Virus record (IMG/VR): IMGVR_UViG_3300042392_000623
Coordinates: 1-21,778 of that record
Direction: 5' to 3' (one strand)
Length of the DNA stretch: 21,778 nt
Origin: a virus
Position numbers and translations under genes: made by a program. The notes below the pieces were generated by a model, which worked only from the letters and a program-made list of their open reading frames with translations, made no database searches and was not told where the DNA came from. Shown here piece by piece: positions 1 to 13,090 of this stretch; position 1 is the first letter of the stretch; every line of letters begins with the position of its first letter.

Positions 1-110
1 TACGCCACCCATTTCCCATCGTCGCGGCGCATTGTCTTGATTCCCTTCTTCTCCTGCCACTTTAGGCGAGGTGAAAGCTCTTCTGGCAGGTCGTTAAATA
101 GCAACTCCAT
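1..110 (-). CDS. Hypothetical protein, N-terminal part only (cut by window edge)
   Basis: An ATG on the minus strand at 110 opens 36 codons that run off the left edge without a stop. The visible protein starts MELLFNDLPEELSPRLKWQE and continues with a basic stretch (KKGIKTMRRDDGKW). It overlaps the 3' end of the 52-aa gene just upstream by 17 bases, a compact arrangement like the rest of this operon. There is no SD sequence before the ATG; the preceding bases are A/C-rich. I do not recognise the family. Reality is inferred from the open frame and the operon position. Confidence 0.5.
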   Translation of the reverse strand, partial: MELLFNDLPEELSPRLKWQEKKGIKTMRRDDGKWVA

Positions 111-252
111 ACTTGTTGACTAGGCGTTTGAGTGCTTCCATTAGTCCGCTCCTGCGATGCTTGGGCGATGCCAAGGCAGATATGAGGGACACGGTTAAAT
201 GCGGGTCGCTGCCAATGGCGCGAACGGGTTTGTAAATTTGTTTCAGTTTCAT
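94..252 (-). CDS. Small hypothetical protein, 52 aa
   Basis: A 52-residue frame starting MKLKQIYKPVRAIGSDPHLT and ending KRLVNKYGVAI. The protein is basic, with a central small-residue segment (SLISALASPKHRRSG) and a likely C-terminal helix. It starts 4 bases after the stop of the 68-aa gene at 257-463 and overlaps the next downstream start, so it fills what would otherwise be an unexplained gap in the operon. The leader ends AAAGAATAACACT before the ATG: A/C-rich, no SD, the same style as neighbouring starts. No family recognised. The tight fit between neighbours is the main support. Confidence 0.6.
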   Translation of the reverse strand: MKLKQIYKPVRAIGSDPHLTVSLISALASPKHRRSGLMEALKRLVNKYGVAI

Positions 253-256
253 AGTG

Positions 257-463
257 TTATTCTTTGATCGTGTTTAGTTCTTTTTTATCGCGCCAGACTT
301 CAAGCCCTCTGCCAGTATCCACAAGGGAGAAGTTGCATCCCCTCATGTCTCGCAGGACGGATCGAAGCCATCTCATTTCGTGTTCGTAGTCTTCTCTGTA
401 CGGGCGAGTAAGCGGGACATGACCCAGCTTCTGCGCCTCCATCGGTGTCAACATTTCAATCAT
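257..463 (-). CDS. Hypothetical protein, 68 aa
   Basis: Sixty-eight residues starting MIEMLTPMEAQKLGHVPLTR. The middle has charged, probably helical sequence (YREDYEHEMRWLRSVLRDM), followed by CNFSLVDTGRGLEVWRDKKE, which reads like a beta-hairpin. This is a plausible small alpha/beta domain of a kind common in phage early operons, but I cannot assign it to a family. The start has an A/C-rich leader (GATAACACTT) and no SD. It lies downstream of the SSB-like gene and upstream of the 52-aa gene, all leftward. Confidence 0.6.
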   Translation of the reverse strand: MIEMLTPMEAQKLGHVPLTRPYREDYEHEMRWLRSVLRDMRGCNFSLVDTGRGLEVWRDKKELNTIKE

Positions 464-533
464 AAGTGTTATCGGAAAGTGGTTTGCCCTGCGATGAACC
501 CTCGGGCCAAGGAATGGATACCCATCTTGTCAT
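456..533 (-). CDS. Possible 25-aa ORF between the SSB-like gene and the 68-aa gene
   Basis: An ATG at 533 opens a frame MTRWVSIPWPEGSSQGKPLS + DNTYD whose TGA overlaps the next ATG by 8 bases, the same overlap length seen at the 2826-2833 junction. It would fill the otherwise empty 89 bases between two operon genes. Against it: it is very short, there is no visible SD, and another frame (MGIHSLARG...) is also briefly open here. Treated as a weak candidate. Confidence 0.2.
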   Translation of the reverse strand: MTRWVSIPWPEGSSQGKPLSDNTYD

Positions 534-552
534 CACTCAAGATTCCCACATG

Positions 553-858
553 CTAAAAAGGTATTTCTGAATCCTCATCATCCCACTTGTCGGGGTGAAG
601 AGTCGCCTTGATCACGCTTGGCTTCTGTGCCTCCCAGTCGACGATCTTGCAGTTTCCGAGAATCGGACCTTTCTCTCCTGCGGCTTTGCGTTCTTTGCTG
701 ATCTTCTGGACTACGAAACCATCGTATCCGTACTTGTCCTTCTCCTCACGAATCAGAACCGTGACGGAGAGGTATTTCTTCCCGTTCTTTGGCGACTCAT
801 AGAGAGCGGTCTTGTCGATCTTCGTTGTATCCAGGCTAATGTCTATTGTTTGCTTCAT
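553..858 (-). CDS. Single-stranded DNA-binding-like protein with SSB-type acidic tip
   Basis: A 101-residue protein. Its N-terminal ~75 residues alternate hydrophobic and polar residues as expected of an OB-type beta barrel (KYLSVTVLIREEKDKYGYDG, then FVVQKISKERKAAGEKGPIL). The C-terminus is DKWDDEDSEIPF, closely resembling the bacterial SSB tail (DDDIPF in E. coli), which recruits replication and repair proteins. It is much shorter than bacterial SSB (about 170 aa), as phage SSBs often are. It starts 9 bases after the exonuclease stop in the same operon as RecT, so a role in coating DNA during recombination or replication is inferred. The leader (CAAATAACAATACACC) has no SD. The tail motif is seen directly; the OB fold is inferred. 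Confidence 0.72.
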   Translation of the reverse strand: MKQTIDISLDTTKIDKTALYESPKNGKKYLSVTVLIREEKDKYGYDGFVVQKISKERKAAGEKGPILGNCKIVDWEAQKPSVIKATLHPDKWDDEDSEIPF

Positions 859-867
859 GGTGTATTG

Positions 868-1677
868 TTATTTGATTGCCCACTTGGGGTATGAGAGTTC
901 TTGGATTCCTTCAACTGCCTTGGGGAAATACTTCTCCGAGATGCATTTCTGGTATTTAGCGATTGCGTTCATGTAACCCTCGCGGCCCAGCTTGATGAAG
1001 TCACCGGACAGGTTGACGATTGCGGTCTCATAAGGCGCAGATGTTTCGACAAAGGCAAGCACGAAATTCGTGCGCTCTAGCCCCGTGGCGGCATTGAACA
1101 TGTCCAAATAGACGGCAGCTTGCCAATGGTAGCCTCGGCGCACCACAAGGGACGCTAGGTCGTCAGCTTTGCCAATGCTCGAAGTGGTCTTGATGTCCAC
1201 CAAAGATTCCCCTGCCTGTGGCACTAGGTCAATCATCCCGCGCACCTTGGTTTCCCCGATCTGCGAGTAGACGGCAACCTCGGTCTTGTAGCCGGTGACA
1301 AATAGTGGCTGAAGGTCAAGGTCATTGAGGATCGACTCCGCGCATTCGTTGGCGGCGTTAAGCTGGGCCGGCGTGATGCAGACCTTCCCCTGTGCTACCA
1401 TCGAATCCCGCCATTCCTGCGCCGCTTTAGTACGGAATGAGTCGTATTCGCTAACGGCATAGGTTTCGGCGTACTCGGTGGGCGTGAGAGCAAGGCAATG
1501 CACGAGGCTTCCAAACTCCATCGCCGGCGTTGTCTCTTTCGGGCCGCTATGGAACCATTTCCAAGGACTTTGGTCGAACTCCCAGAGCATGCTTTTTGAC
1601 ACATACCCGCCCAAGTTGGAGGGGCTTGCGCCCCCCTCGTAATACTTGCGCCCTAAATTGTATACTAGATTACTCAT
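868..1677 (-). CDS. PDDEXK exonuclease, RecE/exonuclease VIII-like (DUF3799 type)
   Basis: A 269-residue protein with the hallmarks of the RecE C-terminal/DUF3799 nuclease family: GSLVH at residues 56-60, KTEVAVY at 131-137, VRGMIDLV at 145-152, VDIKTTSSI at 160-168 and YHWQAAVYLDM at 183-193. H60, D150, D161, K163 and probably E133 are the likely metal and catalytic residues (D...DxK core), and Q186 matches the trailing Q motif. The family resects double-stranded DNA ends to give 3' single strands, which the annealing protein encoded just upstream would use. It overlaps that RecT-like gene by 4 bases (ATGA). It has one of the few strong SD sites in the window (AAGGAGG, 7 bases before ATG), embedded in the last codons of RecT, suggesting coupled translation. 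Length is typical for a phage stand-alone version. Confidence 0.85.
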   Translation of the reverse strand: MSNLVYNLGRKYYEGGASPSNLGGYVSKSMLWEFDQSPWKWFHSGPKETTPAMEFGSLVHCLALTPTEYAETYAVSEYDSFRTKAAQEWRDSMVAQGKVCITPAQLNAANECAESILNDLDLQPLFVTGYKTEVAVYSQIGETKVRGMIDLVPQAGESLVDIKTTSSIGKADDLASLVVRRGYHWQAAVYLDMFNAATGLERTNFVLAFVETSAPYETAIVNLSGDFIKLGREGYMNAIAKYQKCISEKYFPKAVEGIQELSYPKWAIK

Positions 1678-2438
1678 GGTTCTACCTCCTTGGTCATTTT
1701 CTCGAATGCTTCTGCGATCTTGTCGGCGTGTGGCTTCGTGTTCCCCTTGGGCTTGTCCTCGACAACCTGTGCCTCGACAACCTCAACGGGTTCTGGCTCG
1801 GGTTCTGGTTCAGCCACGAATGGGTTTGCCTTTGGGGTCACATTGCGAGGTGGTTCGGCAAAGTCTCGCACCTCGTCCTGCGTGTACATGCCCAGCGACA
1901 TATCAGAGGCATAGGCGCGGCTCCAGAATGAAGCGGCGCGATAGCGGAGCATCTGTCCAGGCATCGTGAGCCACTTGCTTCCGTTCTTTGTTGACCAGCC
2001 TTCTTTCTTGGCCATCTCCAGCGTGATGCGCTCACCTTTGAGTTCCTCACCTGTTGCCATGTCCCGCGCAACAGCATAGCACCAAGTCGGGGCTTCGTCG
2101 CTATCGAACACAAAGCGCAGGGGCGAGAACTTCCCGCTTGCGTTGATCATGCCAATGAGCGCAGTAGCAGACCACGAAGGCCGCCCGTGAATGATGGCGA
2201 GGTTTTGGCATACCATCAAAACATCAAGCCGTGTCCGCTTTGATATGTTAAGAGCGATCGCGCAGTTGGCTACATTCCCCGCAAAGTCCTTGGGGACTAG
2301 GGTTGACTTGCTCAACATCATCGCTTGCCGTTGCACAAGCTCGAACGCCTGTGTCTCGGCCTGCACTTGGGCGAGAATGCCCGTGTTTTGTGCTTCCTGC
2401 GGCACAATCGCATCTTGTTTTGTTTCGTCGTTTTCCAT
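1674..2438 (-). CDS. recT: RecT-family single-strand annealing protein
   Basis: A 254-residue protein. The middle carries features of phage RecT-type annealing proteins: LSKSTLVPKDFAGNVANC at 42-59, LDVLMVCQNLAIIHGRPSWS at 71-90, and WLTMPGQMLRYRAASFW at 156-172 followed by GMYTQDEVRDF at 183-193. The C-terminal tail is variable, with a Pro-Glu run (PEPEPEP) around 211-217 and a charged helix. Such proteins anneal complementary single strands after exonuclease resection. Its partner nuclease follows with a 4-base overlap. An in-frame TTG at 2450 would add four residues and overlap the previous gene by 8 bases; I prefer the ATG at 2438 because it follows the previous stop cleanly. No SD precedes this ATG. 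Confidence 0.85.
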   Translation of the reverse strand: MENDETKQDAIVPQEAQNTGILAQVQAETQAFELVQRQAMMLSKSTLVPKDFAGNVANCAIALNISKRTRLDVLMVCQNLAIIHGRPSWSATALIGMINASGKFSPLRFVFDSDEAPTWCYAVARDMATGEELKGERITLEMAKKEGWSTKNGSKWLTMPGQMLRYRAASFWSRAYASDMSLGMYTQDEVRDFAEPPRNVTPKANPFVAEPEPEPEPVEVVEAQVVEDKPKGNTKPHADKIAEAFEKMTKEVEP

Positions 2439-2442
2439 AGTA

Positions 2443-2649
2443 TTAGGCAAAGTAAAAACCCACTTTGTTTTTCAGATCCTCATAGGCCTCGGCAAGTCTC
2501 CTTGCACCAGAAACCTTGAGGTAGTATATGATAGCCGCATCAGCATCGATGTGCGCAATCTCCCTGTCCGACCGTCTTCTGGTATGGAATGTGTCGATTT
2601 CCTCCAGCATGGCTAGAGCCTCTTCAATTTGTCGTTGGTTTGTTTCCAT
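2443..2649 (-). CDS. Hypothetical protein, 68 aa, mostly helical
   Basis: Sixty-eight residues starting METNQRQIEEALAMLEEIDT, with a helical, charged sequence throughout and ending KNKVGFYFA. The middle (RRRSDREIAHIDADAAIIYY) has mixed charge. No domain recognised. The gene overlaps the end of the helix-turn-helix gene by 26 bases and ends just before the RecT start, so it is co-transcribed with the recombination module. The leader (AACTAAACAAAATCGACG) is A/C-rich and lacks SD. Confidence 0.6.
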   Translation of the reverse strand: METNQRQIEEALAMLEEIDTFHTRRRSDREIAHIDADAAIIYYLKVSGARRLAEAYEDLKNKVGFYFA

Positions 2650-2833
2650 CGTCGATTTTGTTTAGTTCATTCAGCTGTTTTGCGATGTGCTTCCCCACCG
2701 CGATGGGATCGAATAAGGGCATTCCTTCCCTCATTACATGTGGAATATAGCCATCGGCGGCCCATAGGGCGACAACGGCTGGAGGCAGTTTTAAGTCATC
2801 TGCCATCTCATGCAAGCTAAAAAGTCTAATCAT
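2624..2833 (-). CDS. MerR/excisionase-type helix-turn-helix protein
   Basis: Sixty-nine residues from the ATG at 2833. Residues 3-50 (LFSLHEMADDLKLPPAVVAL, then WAADGYIPH and PLFDPIAVGKHI) match the pattern of a MerR-like or excisionase winged-helix: a first helix with a DNA-reading turn, a W...GxIP wing entry, then a final hydrophobic segment. Such proteins bind DNA as recombination directionality factors or small regulators. An in-frame ATG at 2947 would give 107 residues but overlaps the upstream gene by more than 120 bases. The start at 2833 gives an 8-base overlap and an A/C-rich leader (AAAGAAAAACACC) typical of this operon. No integrase is visible in the window, so excisionase is only one option. 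Confidence 0.6.
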   Translation of the reverse strand: MIRLFSLHEMADDLKLPPAVVALWAADGYIPHVMREGMPLFDPIAVGKHIAKQLNELNKIDDGNKPTTN

Positions 2834-3119
2834 GGTGTTTTTCTTTATTGGTTCCAGTAAATGCCAAGAAGTCCCAAGGGGTGAATGGCCCAGTCCTGTT
2901 TTTTCGGTGTTCTTCGTAGGCTTCGGTTTCTTTCTTTTTGTAGGCATCGAGCCTCCGTGCTGTCATTTCAAACATTGACAGAAGATATTTATTTTCTGCC
3001 ATGAGTTCGGAAACCTTGTCTTCGAGGTCGGCTTTCGTGATGCGTCTGCGTCTCACGCTATTTTTTCTTTTGGGGTTTCTTCTTCCATAGGGGCTTCGCT
3101 TATTAGGCGTTGGAGGCAT
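2826..3119 (-). CDS. Hypothetical basic/coiled-coil protein, 97 aa (or 76 aa)
   Basis: The first 28 residues are strongly basic (RSPYGRRNPKRK, VRRRRIT). They are followed by a likely coiled coil (KADLEDKVSELMAENKYLLS onward, heptad-like leucines) and a polar tail ending NKEKHHD. The basic region could touch nucleic acid (inference). The ATG at 3119 overlaps the DnaA-like gene by 67 bases. A GTG at 3056 would overlap it by just 4 bases (GTGA) and give 76 residues, which fits the coupling style of the operon equally well. The true start is therefore uncertain. Family unknown. Confidence 0.55.
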   Translation of the reverse strand: MPPTPNKRSPYGRRNPKRKNSVRRRRITKADLEDKVSELMAENKYLLSMFEMTARRLDAYKKKETEAYEEHRKNRTGPFTPWDFLAFTGTNKEKHHD

Positions 3120-3409
3120 TCGCGCACTTTGTCTGCGAATCGATCGTCATGCTCGATAAGGAACCTAACGCGCTCCCGTGCATGCATGACCGCGCCGTGG
3201 TGTCGGTCGAGCCTGTAGCCTGTTTCCTGCAATGAATGGTTTTCGCTCCAAATGGTTGCCACAAGTTGCCTAGGCTCCACCCACCGCGCAAAGCGTGAGC
3301 GGCAAAGGATTTGTTCTGGAGTGACGGAAAAGACCTCGGCAACAATGCGAACGAGGAAAGCGAACTTGTCCGCTTCTGTGTCCTCATAGAGTTTCCAATT
3401 TACTTTCAC
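3053..3409 (-). CDS. Stand-alone DnaA domain IV-like DNA-binding protein
   Basis: A 118-residue protein starting with GTG. Residues 18-85 follow the pattern of the DnaA C-terminal DNA-binding domain: IVAEVFSVTPEQIL at 22-35, a basic loop RSRFARWVEPRQL at 37-49 (R47 and Q48 match the conserved RQ pair), NHSLQETGYRL at 57-67, and DRHHGAVMHARERV at 68-81 in place of the signature RDHSTVLHA. The AAA+ ATPase part of DnaA is absent, so it cannot act as a full initiator. It could bind DnaA boxes, modulate host DnaA, or act as a regulator (inference). The GTGA overlap with the upstream membrane-protein gene and a G-rich SD-like tract (AAAGGGGGTG) suggest coupled translation. The C-terminal tail (EAPMEEETPKEKIA) is acidic and probably disordered. 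Confidence 0.7.
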   Translation of the reverse strand: MKVNWKLYEDTEADKFAFLVRIVAEVFSVTPEQILCRSRFARWVEPRQLVATIWSENHSLQETGYRLDRHHGAVMHARERVRFLIEHDDRFADKVRECLQRLISEAPMEEETPKEKIA

Positions 3410-3597
3410 GCCGCACCCCCTTTCGGGTTGTTGTCCTCATGGATCACATAGGCCGCCCAGACTGCCACAGATAGCAGGGACGATCCGTAGAATGCCCACA
3501 TTTTCCACTTTGTCGGGGCTTCAAAGAGGCTGTCCACGAAAAGGAACAGAAACAGATGGCCGAATATAGCCAAGGCCAAGATCATTTGCTTTTTCAT
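3406..3597 (-). CDS. Small membrane protein, two predicted transmembrane segments
   Basis: Sixty-three residues with two hydrophobic stretches, about 4-24 (QMILALAIFGHLFLFLFVDS) and 33-52 (MWAFYGSSLLSVAVWAAYVI), joined by a short polar loop (EAPTKWK) and ending in a polar tail (HEDNNPKGGAA). This would be an inner-membrane hairpin. A holin-like or membrane-anchoring role is possible, but holins usually sit in late operons near an endolysin, and no endolysin is adjacent. It overlaps both neighbours by 4 bases and is preceded by an SD-like GGAAAGG. Function unknown. Confidence 0.6.
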   Translation of the reverse strand: MKKQMILALAIFGHLFLFLFVDSLFEAPTKWKMWAFYGSSLLSVAVWAAYVIHEDNNPKGGAA

Positions 3598-3818
3598 GCC
3601 GCCGCCTTTCCGTTTGACCTTTCAATTCTGCGGCAATGGCGAAGCATCTTGGCAACCTCTCGCCGCTCGATGCTCACCCCGTAGCACCCGACCATTAGCG
3701 AGGCATAACGCCCCCACGGGTCGCGATTTGTGATAAGATGTATCCTCTCATTAAATGCAGGGCTTGCCATTTGGTAGTCATGCCGTGCGCCGTCTCGTTT
3801 TGCTTTTTCAAGTGTCAT
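3594..3818 (-). CDS. Hypothetical protein, 74 aa
   Basis: From the ATG at 3818 the protein starts MTLEKAKRDGARHDYQMASP and ends with a very basic helix (REVAKMLRHCRRIERSNGKA). A TTG at 3857 would extend it by 13 residues into the preceding gene; I prefer 3818 because the bases before it form the A/C-rich repeat leader (AAACG)3, the style seen at other starts after a gap. The family is not recognised. Its stop overlaps the membrane-protein start by 4 bases. Confidence 0.55.
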   Translation of the reverse strand: MTLEKAKRDGARHDYQMASPAFNERIHLITNRDPWGRYASLMVGCYGVSIERREVAKMLRHCRRIERSNGKAAA

Positions 3819-3841
3819 TTTCGTTTCGTTTCGTTTGTGGT

Positions 3842-4150
3842 TTATTCCATACTCCAATCGTCAACTGGCGGGTCGATACGTTTTCGCCCCCATAGCGTCT
3901 CCAATCGGTGCAAGTCGATGCCAAGGCAAGCCAAGACATCAGCGAAGGTTTCCGCATCGATGTTGCAAAGCGCGGCCTTGTCGTTTGCGTGGTACTCCAT
4001 GAGCAACGGAAATTGGTCGGCATCATCCATTTCGGCTATATCCTCCGCCGCTTTTTGGATGCACTCCAATACCCAGGGCGCGTCATCCGTGGACACCCCA
4101 TCGCGCATGATCGCCAGCAGGGCATTATTCTCCCATTGTGGTCGGCTCAT
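3842..4150 (-). CDS. Hypothetical acidic protein, 102 aa
   Basis: One hundred and two residues, starting MSRPQWENNALLAIMRDGVS and ending DPPVDDWSME. It is acidic, rich in Asp/Glu in the segment IQKAAEDIAEMDDADQF, and probably all-helical. No recognised domain. It overlaps the upstream gene by 4 bases (ATGA) with a G-run (AAAGGGGGGCGG) in SD position, so it is likely translated by coupling. Function unknown. Confidence 0.6.
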   Translation of the reverse strand: MSRPQWENNALLAIMRDGVSTDDAPWVLECIQKAAEDIAEMDDADQFPLLMEYHANDKAALCNIDAETFADVLACLGIDLHRLETLWGRKRIDPPVDDWSME

Positions 4151-4362
4151 TCCGCCCCCCTTTCAAATTGAATCTCGCCAAGTTTCCACTTGAGTCCTTG
4201 AAGTTCCGCCTTGAGTTTCTCAATCTCGCCGGTTCTTTTTTTGTTTCCTTCAATTGACGGAAATTCAATCACGCGCCAGGTGTGAGACACGATCTCTTGG
4301 TTTATGCGATGCATCCTCGCGGTAATGACATCTTCCGTCATTGGTTCCGTTTCTGTTTTCAT
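4147..4362 (-). CDS. Hypothetical helical protein, 71 aa
   Basis: Seventy-one residues starting MKTETEPMTEDVITARMHRI. The second half is a likely coiled coil (TGEIEKLKAELQGLKWKLGE, leucines in heptad spacing), suggesting oligomerisation. Start leader: AACCCGCCGAAACT, without SD. It lies 18 bases after the stop of the acidic 122-aa gene and overlaps the following gene by 4 bases. No family recognised. Confidence 0.6.
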   Translation of the reverse strand: MKTETEPMTEDVITARMHRINQEIVSHTWRVIEFPSIEGNKKRTGEIEKLKAELQGLKWKLGEIQFERGAE

Positions 4363-4380
4363 AGTTTCGGCGGGTTATGA

Positions 4381-4749
4381 TTAGAAGCAAGGCACAATCA
4401 CGCCACCCTCGAATTCGATGGCGGGTTCCGCGTTTTCGAAGATGTAGTGGCGAATGGCGGCATCTATTGTTTCCTCGTCTTCCTCGAATTCGTCGCGGCT
4501 CATGACCAGGTTCAGCCCTAGTTTTTCCGCCGCATCTTCATGGTCGCGAAAGCAGTCTTCTGCCCAGTGGGTCAGACTTCCATATTCGCTCCACTCGCAT
4601 CGTATATCTGTGACGCTTAAAACAGCATCATCGGGGCTGTTTTCATCTAGGAAACTGGCGAGTGCCAAGGCTCCATTTGCGCTCCAATTTGCGTCCTCAT
4701 CGGCGCGGAGTGCGTTTGCAATGTCGTATTTCGTGAGGTTCATTTTCAT
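4381..4749 (-). CDS. Highly acidic phage protein, 122 aa, unknown function
   Basis: From the ATG at 4749 (MKMNLTKYDIANALRADEDA) to the end EFEGGVIVPCF. By hand count about 29 acidic against 8 basic residues, so it is strongly negative. The N-terminal half (YDIANALRADEDANWSANGA, then IRCEWSEYGSLTHWAEDCF) and the terminal E-F-x-G-G-V-I-V pattern resemble small hypothetical proteins I know from many phages. Acidity is compatible with DNA mimicry or anti-restriction activity (ArdA-like proteins are similarly acidic), but no catalytic or diagnostic motif supports this. A TTG at 4854 would extend the frame through a Thr repeat encoded by (AAC)9; I regard that as leader, not protein. The next ATG at 4743 is also possible. 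Confidence 0.65.
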   Translation of the reverse strand: MKMNLTKYDIANALRADEDANWSANGALALASFLDENSPDDAVLSVTDIRCEWSEYGSLTHWAEDCFRDHEDAAEKLGLNLVMSRDEFEEDEETIDAAIRHYIFENAEPAIEFEGGVIVPCF

Positions 4750-4780
4750 CGTTGTTGTTGTTGTTGTTGTTGTTGTTGTA
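4750..4780 (-). repeat. (AAC)9 trinucleotide repeat leader
   Basis: On the plus strand this is GTT repeated nine times (4751-4777); on the coding strand it reads TAC(AAC)9G directly before ATG. It lacks U and G almost completely, so it cannot fold, and it replaces an SD site. Unstructured CAA-type leaders are known to favour ribosome entry; that role here is inference. Copy number could vary between isolates. Confidence 0.8.
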
Positions 4781-4790
4781 GTCTCATCAG

Positions 4791-4822
4791 TACCAGCATT
4801 ACTGGTAGACCGCTCACGCGGT
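4791..4822. promoter_or_regulatory. Two adjacent short hairpins upstream of the (AAC)9 leader
   Basis: TACCAG-catta-CTGGTA (4791-4807, stem 6, loop 5) is followed immediately by ACCGC-tcac-GCGGT (4809-4822, stem 5, loop 4). They lie in the 123-base gap between the 47-aa membrane gene and the acidic-protein gene. They could be a terminator or attenuator, an RNA processing site, or operators. There is no T-run directly after either on the minus strand, so a simple intrinsic terminator is unlikely. Confidence 0.4.
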
Positions 4823-4872
4823 TTCGACTTGAAGATATGCACAGCTGTTGGCAATGCAAGCGGATTTGTGAT

Positions 4873-5016
4873 TTATTTTTGGAGGTTCAAAGGCTCACTA
4901 GCACGCACGCGCGTCTCGATGTCACTAGGCCCGCCGAAGGCTCCGCTTGTCACGGCGATGGCAAGGGCAAGGCAAAGCACAAGGGCAAGGGCAAGGAATA
5001 GGTTGGATAGTTTCAT
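4873..5016 (-). CDS. Small membrane or exported protein, 47 aa
   Basis: A 47-residue frame starting MKLSNLFLALALVLCLALAI and ending RVRASEPLNLQK. Residues 5-22 are a continuous hydrophobic segment behind a Lys, as in a signal peptide or single membrane anchor. A possible cleavage region is AVTSGA. The short tail is polar. The ATG overlaps the upstream stop by 4 bases (ATGA), the junction type common here, which is good support despite the small size. No SD is seen. Function unknown; a spanin-like or superinfection-exclusion role would be speculation. Confidence 0.6.
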   Translation of the reverse strand: MKLSNLFLALALVLCLALAIAVTSGAFGGPSDIETRVRASEPLNLQK

Positions 5017-5285
5017 GCGTCAAAAGGAATGATTGTGAGCTTGCAGTCATGTTCAGCGGCATAGTCATGCGCAAATTCTGAATCCCATTCAGTCCCAATG
5101 TAATCACCATCGTGCGTTTCCAATAGGTACTTGCAAGGGTATGGCGGCAACATCGGAAGCGGTTGGACTAGGTGAGGCTTCCCGCTCATGCGAAACCCCG
5201 CATTCATGCGGACAACCTTGGCGCGGTTTACCTTTGCTAATTGGAATGCCTTTATTTCTACTTGTGCTAATTGGTACGCGTTCAT
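5013..5285 (-). CDS. Hypothetical protein, 90 aa
   Basis: From the ATG at 5285: MNAYQLAQVEIKAFQLAKVN, then a Pro-rich centre (VQPLPMLPPYPCKYLL) and a C-terminal domain GDYIGTEWDSEFAHDYAAEH ending TIIPFDA. A strong SD-like tract (AAAGGGGGAGG) precedes the ATG, and the ATG overlaps the upstream 48-aa gene by 4 bases. A longer frame back to a TTG at 5387 exists but would overwrite that gene. No family recognised; the C-terminal half looks like a small globular domain. Confidence 0.6.
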   Translation of the reverse strand: MNAYQLAQVEIKAFQLAKVNRAKVVRMNAGFRMSGKPHLVQPLPMLPPYPCKYLLETHDGDYIGTEWDSEFAHDYAAEHDCKLTIIPFDA

Positions 5286-5428
5286 GCCTCCCCCTTTCTG
5301 ATTGCATCCAAACGCTTTTCCGCCGCTTCTCGCGTTTTGAATAAGCCAGAAACCGCGACGATTTCCCATCTCCAATTTGTGTCCCAAATTTGGAATTTGC
5401 CCTTTGTTTTGACTATGAACATGCTCAT
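5282..5428 (-). CDS. Small hypothetical protein, 48 aa
   Basis: Forty-eight residues: MSMFIVKTKGKFQIWDTNWR, WEIVAVSGLFKTREAAEKRL, DAIRKGEA. The sequence looks like a compact beta-beta-alpha domain: two Trp-rich strands, then an amphipathic helix with the common phage pattern FKTREAAEKRL. It overlaps both neighbours by exactly 4 bases (ATGA at each end) and has an SD-like GGAAGGGAG 6 bases upstream. A larger overlapping frame obscures it. Confidence 0.7.
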   Translation of the reverse strand: MSMFIVKTKGKFQIWDTNWRWEIVAVSGLFKTREAAEKRLDAIRKGEA

Positions 5429-5646
5429 GCCACGCTCCCTTCCATGATTGCGTTCACGACTCCACGCTGTTCCGTGAGTTGGTTAATCGAGGTGGGCTCA
5501 CCATGAACCTCCCGAACGAACGCTGTTATTGTTGGTCGGTCTTTGTGGTAGATACGCCCTAGGTCAATCAATTCACGGAGGGTCAAACCCGTCCAGTTTT
5601 TATGTTCCATCGTTGCTTCAATCATCGTTTTTTGTGTCGTTGTCAT
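5425..5646 (-). CDS. Hypothetical protein, 73 aa
   Basis: Seventy-three residues starting MTTTQKTMIEATMEHKNWTG, followed by LTLRELIDLGRIYHKDRPTI and ending VVNAIMEGSVA. It is probably a small helical protein; the segment TLRELIDLGRIYHKDRPTITAF could be a helix-turn-helix-like pair, but the match is weak. The leader before ATG is repeat-like (CCAAACCAAACCAACGACGA), A/C-rich and without SD. The stop overlaps the 48-aa gene by 4 bases. Function unknown. Confidence 0.55.
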   Translation of the reverse strand: MTTTQKTMIEATMEHKNWTGLTLRELIDLGRIYHKDRPTITAFVREVHGEPTSINQLTEQRGVVNAIMEGSVA

Positions 5647-5667
5647 ATCGTCGTTGGTTTGGTTTGG

Positions 5668-5853
5668 TTAGATGTAAATTTGAGCTTGGTAATCGTGGCT
5701 TGGATAGTTTTTGCAGAAAAACAGATGCCCAAACTCGTTTGTGTAATATGTATTCTCCTCTCCGATGTCCGTGATCGTGATGGCCCCCGTGGAAAGCCAC
5801 AAGTCTGCGGTCGGGATTTCGATCTCTCTTGGTAAGTCTAATTTCGTTTTCAT
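5668..5853 (-). CDS. Hypothetical protein, 61 aa, first gene of the leftward operon
   Basis: Sixty-one residues starting MKTKLDLPREIEIPTADLWL and ending PSHDYQAQIYI; predominantly beta-like, with a Tyr-rich centre (EENTYYTNEFGHLFF). It has no family I recognise. It is the first clear gene downstream of the leftward promoter region. The leader (AACCAAACCACCACGATACA) is A/C-rich without SD. As the first gene of a phage early operon it might be a host-takeover factor, but nothing in the sequence shows this. Confidence 0.55.
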   Translation of the reverse strand: MKTKLDLPREIEIPTADLWLSTGAITITDIGEENTYYTNEFGHLFFCKNYPSHDYQAQIYI

Positions 5854-6350
5854 TTTGTATCGTGGTGGTTTGGTTATTGTTGTTGGCCTGCCTTGTCTGC
5901 TGGCAACGGAATCAATCTAGAACATGGCAGAAAGATTGCCAACAAAAAATGCCAACAACCTAAAAATATATTTCAACAATTCATCGAAATAAGATTGACA
6001 AGCCATCAAACCCTTAAAAACAAGGCATTCCCAACAATCACAAGCAAGGAACAAATTTCATGGCCACAAGGAAACTTTCAACCACTAGGACAACCAAACC
6101 GCTAGGGAACCAAGCTTCAGAGCGTCTAGACATTCCCTTTAGGCTCTAGGTGATTCAATTAAGCGGAGAGAGAAGCAGAAGCAAAGGGAATAGGATAGCG
6201 TCATCAGAATATCACAGACCCATTGGGAAACCCGTTCACCTATTGAAGAAAAGCAATCACCGCGCTTGATGCTTTAAGCAAAGCTTCATGTCTTGACGCG
6301 TCGCACGATCTCCTATGGTCGATCGGCTTTGGCTTTCGGAATGCACAGCA
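5854..6350. other. Non-coding leader/regulatory stretch before the leftward operon
   Basis: About 500 bases without a convincing gene. It lies between a sigma70-like leftward promoter and the first leftward gene. It holds three copies of GCCAACAA/TTGTTGGC (5880-5958), an inverted repeat AGGGAA/TTCCCT (6104-6109 with 6133-6138) and a small hairpin GCTTT-aagc-AAAGC (6271-6284). A 31-codon minus-strand ORF (6038-6133, MSRRSEAWFPSGL...) and a 70-codon plus-strand frame opening with TTG at 5893 exist but look accidental. No tRNA seen. Confidence 0.5.
5880..5958. repeat. Three copies of an 8-base operator-like repeat (TTGTTGGC/GCCAACAA)
   Basis: TTGTTGGC at 5880-5887 on the plus strand and its complement GCCAACAA at 5938-5945 and 5951-5958. 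The last two are direct repeats with a 13-base period (TGCCAACAA core). They lie 30-105 bases upstream of the first leftward gene, a normal operator or activator position, but no regulator can be matched to them. Confidence 0.4.
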
Positions 6351-6378
6351 ATTATATCCATGAGCGGAAATCCGTCAA
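6351..6378 (-). promoter_or_regulatory. Strong sigma70-like leftward promoter
   Basis: On the minus strand: TTGACG (-35, 6373-6378), 16-base spacer, TATAAT (-10, 6351-6356). The -10 is a perfect consensus match and the -35 matches 5 of 6. Transcription would start near 6344 and run left into the early operon after roughly 490 untranslated bases. It sits just downstream of the terminator-like hairpin of the 64-aa gene, so it starts a new unit. Confidence 0.65.
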
Positions 6379-6411
6379 GCTTTTTTATTGTTCACACTTG
6401 CTGGCAATAGA

Positions 6412-6443
6412 AAGGGTGTGCAGGAACAAACCCACACACCCTT
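6412..6443 (-). terminator. Probable intrinsic terminator of the 64-aa leftward gene
   Basis: A perfect 9-base stem AAGGGTGTG (6412-6420) pairs with CACACCCTT (6435-6443) around a 14-base loop, about 25 bases past the stop of the gene at 6468-6662. On the minus strand the stem is followed by TCTATTG, a weak T-rich tail, so efficiency is uncertain. On the plus strand no T-run follows. Confidence 0.55.
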
Positions 6444-6467
6444 CAAATCAAATCCTACAGCGAAAAA

Positions 6468-6662
6468 CTAGGCTGCAGCAGGAACAATGCAATCACGCCC
6501 TGTTCCCTCAATTGCCTCTTTTATGGTGTCAAATCCCATGACGCTGCAACTTGGGTCCAATTCAAAAACAAACCCTTCGTGCAGGGTGATAATGATTCCA
6601 TGGCCCAGTCCGCGCTCATCATCGATGTGCTGTATCCAACTTCTTTTGCGTAGTGTGTTCAT
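6468..6662 (-). CDS. Small conserved-looking phage protein, 64 aa
   Basis: From the ATG at 6662: MNTLRKRSWIQHIDDERGLG, then HGIIITLHEGFVFELDPSCS, VMGFDTIKEAIEGT and an Ala-rich end. The pattern (ID-DERG-LG-G-III-TL-EG-F-F--DPSC---GFDT-KEA) reads as a compact beta-rich domain with a closing helix. I have seen similar small phage proteins annotated only as hypothetical. It stands alone with its own promoter (6697-6724), leader (CAACAATAACA, no SD) and terminator hairpin. An in-frame ATG at 6794 would add 44 residues of low protein character and cross the promoter, so I reject it. Its isolated, operator-flanked position suggests an early or regulatory role (inference). Confidence 0.65.
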   Translation of the reverse strand: MNTLRKRSWIQHIDDERGLGHGIIITLHEGFVFELDPSCSVMGFDTIKEAIEGTGRDCIVPAAA

Positions 6663-6671
6663 TGTTATTGT

Positions 6672-6691
6672 TGCAGCTGGTATCGGCTGCA
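6672..6691. promoter_or_regulatory. Inverted repeat TGCAGC/GCTGCA at the start of the 64-aa gene's transcript
   Basis: TGCAGC (6672-6677) and GCTGCA (6686-6691) are separated by 8 bases and overlap the predicted start of transcription of the leftward gene. It could be an operator or a 5' hairpin in the mRNA. Confidence 0.4.
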
Positions 6692-6696
6692 GGGGA

Positions 6697-6724
6697 AATT
6701 TAAAAGATGACGGGTGCAAGTCAA
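6697..6724 (-). promoter_or_regulatory. Candidate leftward promoter for the 64-aa gene
   Basis: On the minus strand: TTGACT (-35, 6719-6724, 5 of 6), 16-base spacer, TAAATT (-10, 6697-6702, 4 of 6). The expected start near 6690 gives a leader of roughly 28 bases. Confidence 0.5.
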
Positions 6725-6745
6725 ATGAAAAAAGAAAATATTTTT

Positions 6746-6757
6746 CTGCTGCAGCAG
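6746..6757. repeat. Perfect 12-base palindrome CTGCTGCAGCAG
   Basis: It lies 22 bases upstream of the -35 of the leftward promoter at 6697-6724. The same CTGCAGCAG core recurs near 6473-6481 at the end of the 64-aa gene. A regulator-binding site is plausible. Confidence 0.4.
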
Positions 6758-6768
6758 CTAAATTGAAA

Positions 6769-6844
6769 TGTTCCACAAGGTCAGCGTGGAACACAAGTCA
6801 ACGGACATTGGCACTGCTGTACATGTTCCACGGGAATGTTCCAC
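6769..6844. repeat. Four copies of TGTTCCAC (parS half-site-like)
   Basis: TGTTCCAC at 6769-6776, 6824-6831 and 6837-6844, plus the inverted copy GTGGAACA at 6786-6793. The first and the inverted copy form an 8-base inverted repeat around a 9-base spacer; the last two are direct repeats with a 13-base period. The unit equals one half of the bacterial ParB site (TGTTCCACGTGAAACA in Bacillus), but no complete site is present. Operators for a phage regulator are the simpler reading. Confidence 0.55.
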
Positions 6845-6892
6845 GCACCAGTCTAATACCTTACTAATCCACTACAGATTGTGCGCTCTAAC

Positions 6893-6976
6893 ATTAGCGC
6901 GTCACTCATGAATCCGGCGCTGATCACGCGAACACTGGCCAAGCGAACACCAGGCTAATCATTAGCGCCACGCTAA
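6893..6976. repeat. Cluster of direct and inverted repeats (ATTAGCGC, GCGAACAC)
   Basis: ATTAGCGC at 6893-6900 and 6961-6968. GCGAACAC at 6928-6935 and 6943-6950 (15-base period). A palindrome GCTAAT-c-ATTAGC at 6954-6966 runs into a hairpin TTAGCG-cca-CGCTAA at 6962-6976. Such density suggests an iteron-like origin or an operator array for the divergent region. Confidence 0.5.
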
Positions 6977-6984
6977 GGTATGAC

Positions 6985-7042
6985 GGGGGGAGGGGGTCGA
7001 CCAGCGAAATGTTTTTATCATTGCTATCCATACCCCCCCCCC
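6985..7042. other. Long G and C homopolymer tracts
   Basis: GGGGGGAGGGGG at 6985-6996 and a run of ten C at 7033-7042, 36 bases apart and mutually complementary. They could pair into a long stem, or the G side could form a four-stranded structure. Homopolymers of this length are rare in the rest of the window. The exact run length may also be affected by sequencing error. Confidence 0.5.
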
Positions 7043-7084
7043 AGAAAAATTGTTACAATGGGGCAGTTCCCGTTCGGGGTTATT

Positions 7085-7093
7085 TGTGGATAG
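7085..7093 (-). promoter_or_regulatory. Near-consensus DnaA box
   Basis: TGTGGATAG is one base from TGTGGATAA, the complement of the DnaA box TTATCCACA. It sits in the repeat-rich intergenic region. I saw no second good match, so its use is uncertain; the phage's own DnaA domain IV-like protein makes it worth noting. Confidence 0.35.
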
Positions 7094-7145
7094 GTCTAGT
7101 GTATTGTGCCTAAATGTGCTAGATAGGTAACATTTGTGTTTATGG

Positions 7146-7175
7146 TTGACATTATGTGTGGGATTGTGGTAATTG
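7146..7175 (+). promoter_or_regulatory. Candidate rightward late promoter
   Basis: Perfect -35 TTGACA (7146-7151), 18-base spacer, weak -10 TAATTG (7170-7175). It would start transcription about 40 bases before the first late gene. The -10 is poor, so a phage-controlled or activator-dependent promoter is possible. Confidence 0.4.
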
Positions 7176-7222
7176 GTTGGTTGAGCGCGAGATGGACTTG
7201 TGCTTGATAACTTATTTATATT

Positions 7223-7483
7223 ATGCCTAGAGGCGACTCATATCAATTACAAGGCCAAATGGGTGGCATCGTGCTTACTGGTGCTGACAGCGCGACTGGT
7301 CTATTCCGTTGGATTCAAGCAATTACTGACAGTGTAATTGAGTCTGGTGCTGGTGAGACTGCTGGCAACTTGGATGACATTTCCAACCTTGATGGCAAGA
7401 CGCTTGCTGCTGGTGCTGGCATTGGTGGCATCTTTACCAAAGTTCAAATCAGCTCTGGTACGGTTATTGCGTATTACGCATAA
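7223..7483 (+). CDS. Small virion-like protein (spike/decoration type), 86 aa
   Basis: The first late gene. Residues 26-45 (GLFRWIQAITDSVIESGAGE) are followed by a Gly/Ala-rich centre (NLDGKTLAAGAGIGGI) and end FTKVQISSGTVIAYYA. The closing pattern (G-G-I-F-T-x-I/V-x-x-S-S/G-G-x-V-I-A-Y) recurs in small phage proteins encoded near tail or head genes and is consistent with a trimeric beta spike or decoration protein; the exact role is inferred. The start has no SD; the upstream bases are A/T-rich (AACTTATTTATATT). Its stop and the next start share one base (TAATG). Confidence 0.55.
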   Translation: MPRGDSYQLQGQMGGIVLTGADSATGLFRWIQAITDSVIESGAGETAGNLDDISNLDGKTLAAGAGIGGIFTKVQISSGTVIAYYA

Positions 7484-10200
7484 TGTCCCAGTTCCGATCC
7501 ACTGGTGGGTTAGATGACGCGATTGCCGCCGATGGTGATCGTGGGTTTGTTGGCGTGAACCAACGGTTGCAGCTTAACCAGTTGAAGGCTGGGGAGGTAA
7601 GGGAAAGCATTAACGGGCGCATGGAGGGTTACTGGAAGCCCCGCAAGGTGGTAGTTTCTAGGACTGGTGCGTTAACCGTTGGCGGTGATCCGTTGCAGTT
7701 GCCATTCTACTTGGTTGGCTCAAGCGTAATGATTACTGCCGCCTCAATTACTTCTGGAGTAGTTACGCTAACTACTGCATCAGCACACGGTTTAAGTGCT
7801 GGGGCCACACTGAACATTGCTGGAATTGGATATACTGCTGGAACCAATCCAAATGGAGTTTTTACAGCAACAACTGCAAGTGGATCAAGTATTACATATC
7901 CATTGTCTGGTGGTATAGGCCCATACACAGTTTCCGCTGTTTCACCTATTTCAGAGGTGATTACATCAACATCAAAGACCATCTCGTCCGCCACATACGC
8001 ATCCAATATGGTAACGATTACCATGTCCGCCAATCATGGGTTTGAGATTGGTTCTAGCGGGTACGCTGTAGTGGCTGGACTGACCTTTACTGGCACTAAC
8101 AACAACGGGGCCAAGGTGCTGACTTATGTTTCAGCGAACCAATTAAGCTTCCCTGTAACTGGGGTGACTGCGGTTTCTGGCACTGGCACACTCTCTCAGA
8201 TGCCAATTAACGATGCGGCTAACGCTAATGTCCGAGCCTCCTGCCTGTTCAGCGATCCCAACTCCAACAACAAAGAATATGTGATTGTAGCGTTGGACAC
8301 GGTTGCCAAAAAGATTGATCTAGCGCAAGTCGAGGCTAACTCCCTGTATGTTCCAGAGGACATCTCATATCCCTCTGGAACTGCCTTGGGCGCGGACACC
8401 GACATGATTCAAGTGTTCGACAAGGTGATGCTATTCCGAGAGGGGCAACAGGCGTTGGAGTGGTATCCTAATGGCAGGCCCATTCTCTCTGCGTCACAGA
8501 GTGGAACCACCGTTACGATGAGCGTTCGTGAACACGGGCTTGTGGCAGGAACATCTGTGGTTGTCGCTGGTTTAACTGGTGGCACTCCAGCCAACGGAAC
8601 ATTTACGGTTCTTTCTGGCGCAGGGCTAACTCAAGACCAGTTCCAATATACCTTTACTACAAGTCAAACCCAGACCTTTGGGGTGACTGCCGCCACCATG
8701 ACTGACGGATTTACATTCTCTCCGGGCGGGGCTTACACTCAACCACAGGTGTTTGTTTCTAGTGGTGGGGATGTTTCTGTTTTAAATGGGCAGGTTTCCT
8801 TAGACCTTAGCGTATCTAACGATACCGTATTTGCTGGTGATGTCATTAGGGTTTACGAGAGTGACATACCAGAGTTCTCTGCAATTGTTGGAAAAGACTT
8901 TCAAGTGTCGTCTGCAACGCTGACAAACATCACATTCTTTGCGCCTGTAGCAAACATCACGGCAAGTGGTTCTACTGGACAGATTGAGTTTGGTGGTAGG
9001 TTCAGCGAGGGTGGTGGGTTTATGCACCAACCGGGTGCGCCTTGGGGTGTTCACTTCCAACGCCGCCTGTGGGTTCCGTACTACTACGACCAGTCTGGGG
9101 CTTACAACGCAGTCACCTACACCGACCGCAAGATCACAGACGAGATTGCCGTATCCGACATTCTTGACACCACCACCTTTGACCAGATCGAAAACCAGTT
9201 TCGTGTTTCTGGTGGTACTGCTGACTATGTGGTTGGGATGCATGGGTTCTACGACGATGCGTTGATTGTCCTCAACAGAAACAGCATCCACCAGATTAAG
9301 GGGACGCAGGGGACGCTTCTAGACACTAGGGTTACAGAACTAACCTCCGAGGTTGGCTGCTTAGCTCGCAAGTCCGTAGTGATGAGGGCTAACACCATGA
9401 TGTTCCTGTCGGATGATGGGGTGTATGGTGTGGAGTTCCTTAACGATTACAACCTTCGCGGGGCCGAGGAACCAATTTCCAAGAACATCCAACCTTACAT
9501 TGACAGGCTCAACAGGGATTTGTCTAACAAGTCAGTTGGAATCTTGTTTGATAACAGGTACTACCTTGCGGTTCCGCTGGATTCCGCGCCGGGTATTAAC
9601 GATGCTCGCGGGAACAACTCAATTTTAGTGTACAACTTCCTAAATGGAGGCTGGGAGTCGCTAGATACCTTTGGTGACGATAGTTTTTTGATTGACAACC
9701 TTATTATTGGTTCAGCAGGGGTGAGAAATAACTTGTATGCTGTGACCGCTAACGGTGGATTGCACCAATTAGAGGCGTTTGATGACTCGAATGACACAAT
9801 TAGTGTGTCCAATATCAACGATGTTAAGACATCTTCTCCGATTCTGTCAAAACTAATCACCCGTGGCTACGACCTTGAGACATTGGAGCGGAAAAGGTAC
9901 ACAGACTCGCAGATCAATATGCAGGGGTTGCCCAGCCAAAATTCTGAATACCTAATTGAGTTTGCTGCTGAAGACCCAGATAACTCATCGACCATTGGAA
10001 CTACCACTCAATTCCTTGATGGACAAATCCTACAATCAATCAACCAAGAAGCTGAAACGGCAAGCATTAGGTGCAGGCTTGGTGGCATTAGAGGCTATAC
10101 AGGAACCATGATCTTGACAAGAACACAGGGTTCGGCCAAGATAAACTCAATCAAAGTTGCTGGATCAGTAACAAATAGACAAATAATTTCACAGAAATAA
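7483..10200 (+). CDS. Tail nozzle-like protein (gp12/tail tubular B type) with three inserted beta modules
   Basis: A 905-residue structural protein. The N-terminus (GGLDDAIAADGDRGFVGVNQ then RLQLNQLKAGEVRESINGRM) and the C-terminal half are typical of gp12-like nozzle proteins that cap the podovirus tail tube: QPGAPWGVHFQRRLWVPYYY at 516-535, LIVLNRNSIHQIKG at 594-607, EVGCLARKSVV at 623-633 and MMFLSDDGVYGVEF at 639-652. Three repeated beta modules of 60-70 residues are inserted at about 88-153, 168-236 and 335-402. Each has a V-T-(L/I/M)-T/S start, an A/H-H-G-(L/F) turn, then A-G-(I/L) and N-G-(x)-F/V-T. These look like small carbohydrate- or surface-binding accessory folds. It is roughly 100 residues longer than T7 gp12 (about 790 aa). 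The homology call rests on pattern recognition, not a search. Confidence 0.65.
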   Translation: MSQFRSTGGLDDAIAADGDRGFVGVNQRLQLNQLKAGEVRESINGRMEGYWKPRKVVVSRTGALTVGGDPLQLPFYLVGSSVMITAASITSGVVTLTTASAHGLSAGATLNIAGIGYTAGTNPNGVFTATTASGSSITYPLSGGIGPYTVSAVSPISEVITSTSKTISSATYASNMVTITMSANHGFEIGSSGYAVVAGLTFTGTNNNGAKVLTYVSANQLSFPVTGVTAVSGTGTLSQMPINDAANANVRASCLFSDPNSNNKEYVIVALDTVAKKIDLAQVEANSLYVPEDISYPSGTALGADTDMIQVFDKVMLFREGQQALEWYPNGRPILSASQSGTTVTMSVREHGLVAGTSVVVAGLTGGTPANGTFTVLSGAGLTQDQFQYTFTTSQTQTFGVTAATMTDGFTFSPGGAYTQPQVFVSSGGDVSVLNGQVSLDLSVSNDTVFAGDVIRVYESDIPEFSAIVGKDFQVSSATLTNITFFAPVANITASGSTGQIEFGGRFSEGGGFMHQPGAPWGVHFQRRLWVPYYYDQSGAYNAVTYTDRKITDEIAVSDILDTTTFDQIENQFRVSGGTADYVVGMHGFYDDALIVLNRNSIHQIKGTQGTLLDTRVTELTSEVGCLARKSVVMRANTMMFLSDDGVYGVEFLNDYNLRGAEEPISKNIQPYIDRLNRDLSNKSVGILFDNRYYLAVPLDSAPGINDARGNNSILVYNFLNGGWESLDTFGDDSFLIDNLIIGSAGVRNNLYAVTANGGLHQLEAFDDSNDTISVSNINDVKTSSPILSKLITRGYDLETLERKRYTDSQINMQGLPSQNSEYLIEFAAEDPDNSSTIGTTTQFLDGQILQSINQEAETASIRCRLGGIRGYTGTMILTRTQGSAKINSIKVAGSVTNRQIISQK

Positions 10201-10203
10201 GTT

Positions 10204-11433
10204 ATGGGCGCAGTTAATACGACATACACCTTCACGGCTACTGATGTAATCACTAGCACAAAGATGAATAATATCATTGACGAAACCGTTATGACAGGTG
10301 ACGCTGTTCTTGGTGGATCTGGTGGGAGTGGTGGACTAGATATAGCGTCTGGACGACTGAGCATTTCCAATGGGGCCATTAACTCAAGCCGACTTGCGAC
10401 AAATTCTGTTACAACCAATGCTATTACTGATGGTTCTGTTGAACCAATAAAGTTGTCTACTGGTGGCCCTATTTGGAGTGCTGGCTTAAATGGCGCAACA
10501 ACAATGCAACCAGTAATTGAACTTGGTGGAACAATAACAAGCAGTACATCTTCGTTAATTGATTTTCATTCGGTGTTTCCATTAAATGACTATGATGCAA
10601 GAATACTTAGAGAGACAGGATCAAATGGGAACTTTATATTAAATAATATTGGAACGGGGTCTTTCATTTTATCAAACACAGATGCTGGGCCGATGTACTT
10701 TGTTACATCGTCATCTGAGAGAGTAACCATTACATCTGGTGGTAATGTTGGAATTGGAACAATATCTCCACAAGCAAAATTACAAGTGGCTGGGGGTAAA
10801 ATAAGAATTGAGGGTCACTCTGGAGAGGGTGGACAACTTGAATTGCTAAACGCTGCCAATAATGACATTCAAGCTATTTTTGATGTAGATGCAAACGATG
10901 TAACAAGAATTTGGACATTGCCATATGAACCACTTTCATTTGGAACTAATACTGGTGAAAGAATGAGAATAGATCCAGATGGCAATGTCGGCATTGGGAC
11001 AACGACACCAAGCACGAAGTTACAAGTAAATGGGACTGTAACCGCTACTGCATTTTCCGGGCCTTTAACTGGTAACGCCAGTTCAGCATCAACGGTAAGC
11101 GATAGTGCAATTACCGCAGCTAAACTAAATGGCAGTCAAAGTGGGTCTGCTCCTATTTATGGCATTAGGGCATTTGGATCTGTGGCACTTGGTACGCCCA
11201 GAACACTTGGATCTGGCTCAAAAAACCTTGCATCTACATCACGCATTGATTCGACACATACACAAGTAACATTTTCAACAAATATGGTTGGGACTGATTA
11301 TGTTGTTTCTGGATGCTCTAGGAATGATGCTGACTTTATTTTTAATACATACGATCACCAGACAAATGGATTCAAAATTTTTCACAGTACTGAAGGCGCA
11401 TTAAGAATTGTCCAGTTTGTTGTTATTGAATGA
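10204..11433 (+). CDS. Tail fibre / receptor-binding protein
   Basis: A 409-residue fibrous protein. The N-terminus (MGAVNTTYTFTATDVITSTK) would attach to the tail. A Gly/Ser-rich segment follows, then SNGAINSSRLATNSVTTNAI, a triple-stranded fibre-like repeat region. Two copies of the fibre repeat GNVGIGTxxPxxKLQV occur near residues 179-194 and 261-276, followed by SGPLTGNASSAST. The C-terminal ~90 residues (TQVTFSTNMVGTDYVVSGCS ... GALRIVQFVVIE) resemble the beta-sandwich tip of phage fibres that binds the host surface. No S74 endosialidase chaperone domain is visible. The gene is A+T-rich (three hand-counted 60-base lines gave 28-35% G+C) compared with about 52% in a line of the nozzle gene, suggesting exchange. 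Confidence 0.75.
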   Translation: MGAVNTTYTFTATDVITSTKMNNIIDETVMTGDAVLGGSGGSGGLDIASGRLSISNGAINSSRLATNSVTTNAITDGSVEPIKLSTGGPIWSAGLNGATTMQPVIELGGTITSSTSSLIDFHSVFPLNDYDARILRETGSNGNFILNNIGTGSFILSNTDAGPMYFVTSSSERVTITSGGNVGIGTISPQAKLQVAGGKIRIEGHSGEGGQLELLNAANNDIQAIFDVDANDVTRIWTLPYEPLSFGTNTGERMRIDPDGNVGIGTTTPSTKLQVNGTVTATAFSGPLTGNASSASTVSDSAITAAKLNGSQSGSAPIYGIRAFGSVALGTPRTLGSGSKNLASTSRIDSTHTQVTFSTNMVGTDYVVSGCSRNDADFIFNTYDHQTNGFKIFHSTEGALRIVQFVVIE

Positions 11434-11762
11434 ACCAGCATTTATCAAAAGCATTTTATGACTACACAAGAAAAAACATCAACTTTACCAATGTCATTGA
11501 TTGGCATTTTTGTAATGGTTTTGTATTGTGTAACACAGAATGTTTCGGTATTGGGTACTTTTCGGACTCCTCAGAACCCACAAATCCAACACAGAAACAC
11601 CACGCTAACTCACTATTTGTTACATACTGCGCTGGAGACATGCGGCAAGTGCTTGAACTTTTTGAAGGGCAATTTGACTTTGTGTCATTCCAAAGGGAAT
11701 TTAAAGGATCTGGTAGCGTGAGACTCTGGGACTATCAAAAAACACTTAATAGAATAAAATAA
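11430..11762 (+). CDS. Small protein following the tail fibre, 110 aa
   Basis: One hundred and ten residues starting MNQHLSKAFYDYTRKNINFT. The pattern FGIGYFSDSSEP, then NSLFVTYCAGDMRQVLELFE and QFDFVSFQREFKGSGSVRLW + DYQKTLNRI, reads as a small alpha/beta domain with a C-terminal R-x-W-x-Y motif. Similar short genes beside phage fibres are known to me only as hypothetical. It overlaps the fibre stop by 4 bases (ATGA), is equally A+T-rich and probably travels with the fibre as one exchange unit (inference). A fibre chaperone is possible but unproven. Confidence 0.5.
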   Translation: MNQHLSKAFYDYTRKNINFTNVIDWHFCNGFVLCNTECFGIGYFSDSSEPTNPTQKHHANSLFVTYCAGDMRQVLELFEGQFDFVSFQREFKGSGSVRLWDYQKTLNRIK

Positions 11763-11763
11763 T

Positions 11764-13083: not shown

Positions 13084-13090
13084 TAAAATT

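Follow-up and report, generated by a model that had tools for sequence, protein, structure and literature searches.

The window analysed in this study comprised all 21,778 bases of the IMG/VR virus record IMGVR_UViG_3300042392_000623, which is probably a fragment. On the left, an exonuclease and RecT are encoded by the minus strand; the structural genes are on the right, in plus-strand orientation. The ORF at 3053–3409 contained a DnaA domain IV (PF08299, E 8.5e-10) and is likely a phage replication initiator. Phage C75C1 encodes related terminase and head-closure proteins; its gene map, which was the part of it examined, showed no matching arrangement.

A scan of positions 1–20000 returned 26 promoter-like sites. 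The top-scoring one was P1 (TTGACG-16-TATAAT; minus strand, 6378–6351), with 11 of 12 consensus matches. Transcription from P1 is expected to start near 6344, and the first gene begins at 5853, ~490 bases later. The original prediction had named both the best promoter of the window and the gap of ~490 bases before the first gene, and both were borne out. As the total number of sites was close to the shuffle level (mean: 24.1), P1 alone proves little. A terminator-like hairpin (AAGGGTGTG...CACACCCTT, 6443–6412) follows the upstream 64-aa gene (6468–6662; read from the sequence), and the stretch is therefore set apart from that gene.

When the left part of the window was compared with relatives by blastn, the stretch was matched as noncoding DNA in several of them, with 70–79% identity in the main matches. 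The genes flanking it were often absent from relatives that kept the stretch. The upstream 64-aa gene was matched in one other contig only, and both flanks varied among the homologs. The first relatives were gathered through a 905-aa protein, and pattern scans with strings internal to the RNA added more, giving 28 close members including the window (group 1; L101 and L093 differ very little from each other). Other relatives had an ORF-free gap at the same location, with the same order of elements on reading. A scan with the P1 string of those relatives led to 22 distinct members (group 2). The nhmmer profile of group 1 matched 5 of the 22 group-2 members on the same strand and none of the shuffled group-2 copies, and the profile of group 2 matched 10 of the 28 group-1 members, all on the same strand. 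Judging from these matches, the two groups are homologous. The RNA was carried by ~50 distinct IMG/VR contigs; a search of the region as DNA in named phage genomes gave no match. For the host, a pattern scan of genome contigs gave six loci, none of them a convincing homolog (best E 0.0088). Literature searches found no paper on such an RNA, which does not prove that none exists.

A promoter site with 9–12 of 12 consensus matches was present immediately upstream of the aligned RNA in all 28 group-1 members (11 or 12 matches in 13 of them). Because of this conservation, P1 is above chance. The homologs of group 1 were gathered via strings inside the RNA or via the protein, independently of P1. 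The P1 string served to complete group 2, and the conservation of P1 in this group is partly by construction; six of the 22 members (L033, L050, L052, L054, L059 and L062), and in addition L051, had already been recovered without that string. In L097, the aligned P1 is TTGACA-17-TACCCT, and a chance site ties with it in score.

Table 1. Features of the stretch from P1 to the first gene, with positions on the window
Feature	Sequence	Position	Strand	Evidence
P1, predicted promoter of the RNA	TTGACG-16-TATAAT	6351–6378	−	11/12 consensus; same place in 28/28 group-1 homologs
Putative conserved noncoding RNA, ~410 nt		5930–6344	−	blastn to relatives, 28-member alignment, no shared frame, no Rfam match
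5' hairpin, covarying stem, followed by conserved UGCG	CGATC-GA-CC-ATA-GG-A-GATCG	6306–6325	−	Pairing test versus shuffles
Core common to the distant group	GCGCGGTGATTG...GGTGAACGGGTTTC	6227–6265	−	Same-strand nhmmer cross-hits; both alignments
Pyrimidine-rich tract	CCTATTCCCTTTGCTTCTGCTTCTCTCTCCGCTT	6161–6196	−	Group-1 alignments; group 2 too
Conserved block	GGGAATGTCTAGACGCTCTGAAGCTTGG	6110–6137	−	Alignment; degenerate form retrieved 23 IMG/VR stretches
Conserved block	GAATGCCTTGTTTTTAAGGGTTTG	6007–6030	−	Alignment; degenerate form retrieved 11 stretches
P2, promoter-like	TTGGCA-17-TAGATT	5914–5942	−	9/12 consensus; 17/25 group-1 and 18/19 group-2 homologs
Hairpin just past P2	TTGCC-AGCAGACAA-GGCAG	5888–5906	−	Relatives have different stems here
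A/C-rich leader without Shine-Dalgarno	AACAACAATAACCAAACCACCACGATACAAA	5854–5887	−	Sequence reading
First gene behind the RNA, 61 aa		5668–5853	−	Occupant of the swappable slot

The group-1 hairpin lies ~20–40 nt past the expected transcription start. In the pairing test, 76 of 96 cells were paired, compared with a shuffled mean of 55.6, and none of 10000 shuffles was as high. This test used 24 of the 28 sequences (12 distinct ones); L101, L093 and L096, which have another 5' domain, and L074 were left out. A separate pair count, which drew on 13 of the 24 sequences, gave 79% paired versus 57.7% after shuffling and ≤46% when slid. The stem variants that keep the pairing were CGATC/GATCG, ACCC/GGGT, GCCC/GGGC, CAGTC/GACTG and CATC/GATG. 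The inner two positions were G.A/A.G mismatches in half the sequences and C-G/G-C in the other half.

Up to three hairpins per RNA were found in group 2, with stems that vary and a loop, GNAGCGNAGCGNA, that is fixed. There were 26 units with this loop in 13 of the 22 loci; the other nine were cut or had no strict 13-nt loop. Of these units, 19 were distinct; pairing was seen in 68 of their 76 stem cells (shuffled: 47.5), and again none of 10000 shuffles was as high. A further group-2 hairpin showed two doubly changed pairs (nine group-2 loci). The 5' domains of L062, L052, L126 and L135 are built of tandem ~57-nt repeats, each with one hairpin carrying the same loop. Repeats with this loop were absent from L050, L054, L122, L129 and L138.

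The shuffle tests of pairing ignore relatedness, and the counts lean high accordingly. This concern is softened because group-1 sites more than ~10 nt apart were nearly unlinked (mean r2 0.06–0.11). Alignment folding of the 5' part (22 of the 28 sequences, leaving out L093, L106, L109, L074, L107 and L108) gave z values of −3.9 and −3.25 in two windows, versus −2.7 and −0.6 on the opposite strand. Compensatory base changes in the 5' hairpins went beyond those of the shuffles, and the 5' domain of the RNA is structured, as judged by this pairing.

The 3' ~300 nt were conserved in sequence among the homologs. Alignment folding of this part gave z values between −2.0 and +0.25 (22 of 28 used), and in the helix scan its covariation was not above the parallel-strand control. 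Over 26 of the 28 group-1 sequences (without L093 and L106), one helix exceeded its parallel-strand control. RNAalifold on the full-length group-2 alignment (19 of 22 used), in which the 5' domains misalign, found nothing below z −1.2 on the RNA strand. A fold of the whole RNA was rejected, with a single-sequence z of −0.07 for the window RNA, no better than shuffles. An intrinsic terminator at the 3' end of the RNA was not conserved: 3 of 28 sequences ranked in the bottom 7% of their respective shuffles. That the stretch forms a noncoding RNA element, conserved and in part structured, and wider than the long leader of one phage, is well supported by these alignments, while its function is something we infer.

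Linkage between sites in the RNA decayed within tens of bases. The decay was equal in recT and exo of the group-1 loci, which points to genome-wide recombination as the source of the mosaic pattern. Mosaic blocks as a special property of the RNA were dropped on this account (six and seven loci for recT and exo). The decay indicates that the group-1 phages recombine very often.

The RNA always had the same orientation and was always located just ahead of a gene, and this gene was exchangeable. The 39 first genes behind the RNA fell into 27 unrelated clusters. The 61-aa gene of the window had no Pfam or PHROG match, and the 27 representatives matched one Pfam family (weakly) and four PHROGs, with one member each. 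The distance from the RNA end to the first ATG was mostly 61–76 nt in group 1, even though the genes are unrelated. Among members with enough sequence, the P2 pattern was found in 17 of 25 in group 1 and in 18 of 19 in group 2, versus 5 of 1000 shuffled segments. Most group-1 members had the form YTGGCA-17-TAGATT or TACCTT, and group 2 had T[TC]G[AT]CA-16/17-TAnnnT. The stems of the hairpin past P2 differed by member (UGCC/GGCA, CCGUU/AACGG, GUUGC/GCAAC, GUCAGC/GCUGGC and GUUAGC/GCUAGC), and its energy was weakly below that of shuffles (mean z −1.24 over 36).

Some further observations concern the surroundings. The start of the upstream 64-aa gene (region 6468–6740) has an architecture like that of the slot gene: a promoter-like TTGACT-16-TAAATT (6724–6697), a hairpin (GCAGC/GCTGC) and an A/C-rich leader (AACAATAACA) with no Shine-Dalgarno sequence. 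A Shine-Dalgarno-like string was seen upstream of only 3 of the 32 listed ORF starts (window positions 94–21778), and translation in the phages' host may initiate independently of such a sequence. Positions 6841–7258 form a conserved noncoding control region with repeated TTAGCGC strings between divergent gene sets; in several relatives, it directly adjoins the promoter of the RNA. TTGCYRGCAA-like palindromes, perhaps an operator, adjoin P1 and P2 (5897–5945 and 6398–6407). At one mismatch, nine such palindromes were counted in the window versus 4.07 expected.

Several explanations of the conservation were weighed. The stretch as a tiny protein gene has almost nothing left to recommend it. The 31-codon ORF at 6133–6038 exists in the window, but only 4 of 28 homologs kept it intact, with stops or missing starts in the rest, and it was refuted as the reason for conservation. 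None of the reading frames stayed open through all members. The original prediction had listed a riboregulator, an antitermination site, a small RNA or a tiny protein; of these, the tiny protein drops out, and support was obtained for a structured noncoding RNA that is conserved. The RNA resembles GOLLD and ROOL in size and phage setting, but it is very improbable that it belongs to a catalogued family (riboswitch, large phage RNA or sRNA): the Rfam 15 covariance models gave no match at the gathering score, either for the window or for the 12 group-2 loci searched. The leader alone, searched against Rfam at E up to 10, gave chance-level matches only, far under the gathering scores. The RNA is new to Rfam. 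It is also unlikely that the stretch acts as DNA, i.e. as a replication origin or regulatory DNA in which the blocks would be protein sites and the inverted repeats DNA hairpins. The gene for the DnaA domain IV protein is close by (3053–3409), the GC skew has its minimum at 6–7 kb and the 3' part is T-rich. Moreover, the group-2 loops contain GCGNAGC, a very stable DNA mini-hairpin, and the group-1 hairpin is visible on the opposite strand too (z −2.7). However, the skew changes where the genes switch direction, and DnaA-box-like sites were not enriched (one TTRTNCACA in the window versus 1.58 expected) and were absent before P1 in several homologs. No cluster of DnaA boxes, as in a DnaA-type origin, was found in the window. 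The second folding window was strand-specific (z −3.25 versus −0.6). All 28 close members have a promoter at the corresponding position, which implies transcription and makes a DNA-only role less likely.

The main rival to a separate RNA is a cis-acting leader, because no terminator is conserved between the RNA and the gene. Transcription from P1 would continue into the early operon, the RNA would be its long 5' untranslated region, and the 5' hairpins would influence either the polymerase, by put-like antitermination, or the translation of the gene that comes next, whichever it is. The near-constant spacing in front of unrelated genes is consistent with this, as is the position of the hairpins near the transcript start, like that of HK022-type put sites. 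Against it, the conserved P2 would restart transcription right ahead of the gene, and the ~300 nt past the hairpins are also conserved, beyond what a put site needs. Gene-specific control is unlikely because the first genes are unrelated. The original prediction had read the stretch as a leader and had named a promoter directly before 5853 as an observation that would refute this. The promoter-like P2 (5942–5914) sits at that place and speaks for a separate RNA. We regard a cis-acting leader as possible but rather doubtful.

The best explanation, to which we give about an even chance, is that the stretch encodes an early noncoding phage RNA with its own promoter P1 and with hairpins bound by a partner, followed by a slot with its own start. 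From P1, the RNA would be made as a separate unit early in infection. The fixed hairpin loops would be binding sites for a protein or RNA partner, and the RNA may serve to bind a host or phage factor, either as a platform or as a decoy. The message of whichever gene occupies the slot would start at P2. The presence of P2 and the exchange of the gene behind the RNA point to an RNA separate from the gene message; this is weakened by the missing conserved terminator and by the fixed place before the gene. More tentatively, the RNA might represent a new class of early phage RNAs, in which a hairpin platform with fixed loops and free stems captures a host or phage factor. Such an RNA would persist as the unchanging first element of the early region while phages exchange the gene behind it, and together with P2 it would form a 'socket' for accessory genes. 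It is predicted that P1 yields a transcript early in infection and that the fixed loops have a partner. Searching for the RNA makes the slot occupants readable and could give a handle on the loading of small accessory genes. Structured phage noncoding RNAs without an assigned function are few (GOLLD and ROOL), and the present RNA is outside Rfam despite its presence in ~50 IMG/VR contigs.

According to PMC12286853, GOLLD and ROOL are large phage or prophage RNAs that form Rfam families, and the 5' region of GOLLD is less conserved and its 3' region conserved. The present RNA is likewise a long phage noncoding RNA with its function unassigned. It differs in being shorter (~410–560 nt), in having no match to their Rfam models and no tRNA in the window, and in a 3' part without covariation support. 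The extensive covarying structure that GOLLD and ROOL show over their whole length was not seen here, and covariation was limited to the 5' hairpins. A further hallmark of GOLLD and ROOL is a homo-multimeric cage. The put sites of the HK022 type are short, with hairpins close to the start of the early phage transcript, and polymerase that has transcribed them reads through terminators. The present hairpins are similar in lying near the 5' end of a predicted early transcript. The present element differs in its length of ~410 nt and in the second promoter-like site ahead of the gene, and an antiterminating role for it would be conjectural. RNAs of the CsrB/RsmZ type are arrays of protein-binding hairpins with a GGA motif. 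The tandem hairpins of group 2, with a repeated loop and free stems, resemble them, but their loop, GNAGCGNAGCGNA, is without a GGA motif in all copies, and in group 1 there is a single hairpin, whose loop differs. The d(GCGNAGC) mini-hairpins are very stable DNA hairpins. The group-2 loops hold overlapping GCGNAGC strings, but here these strings lie within a predicted transcript of phage DNA.
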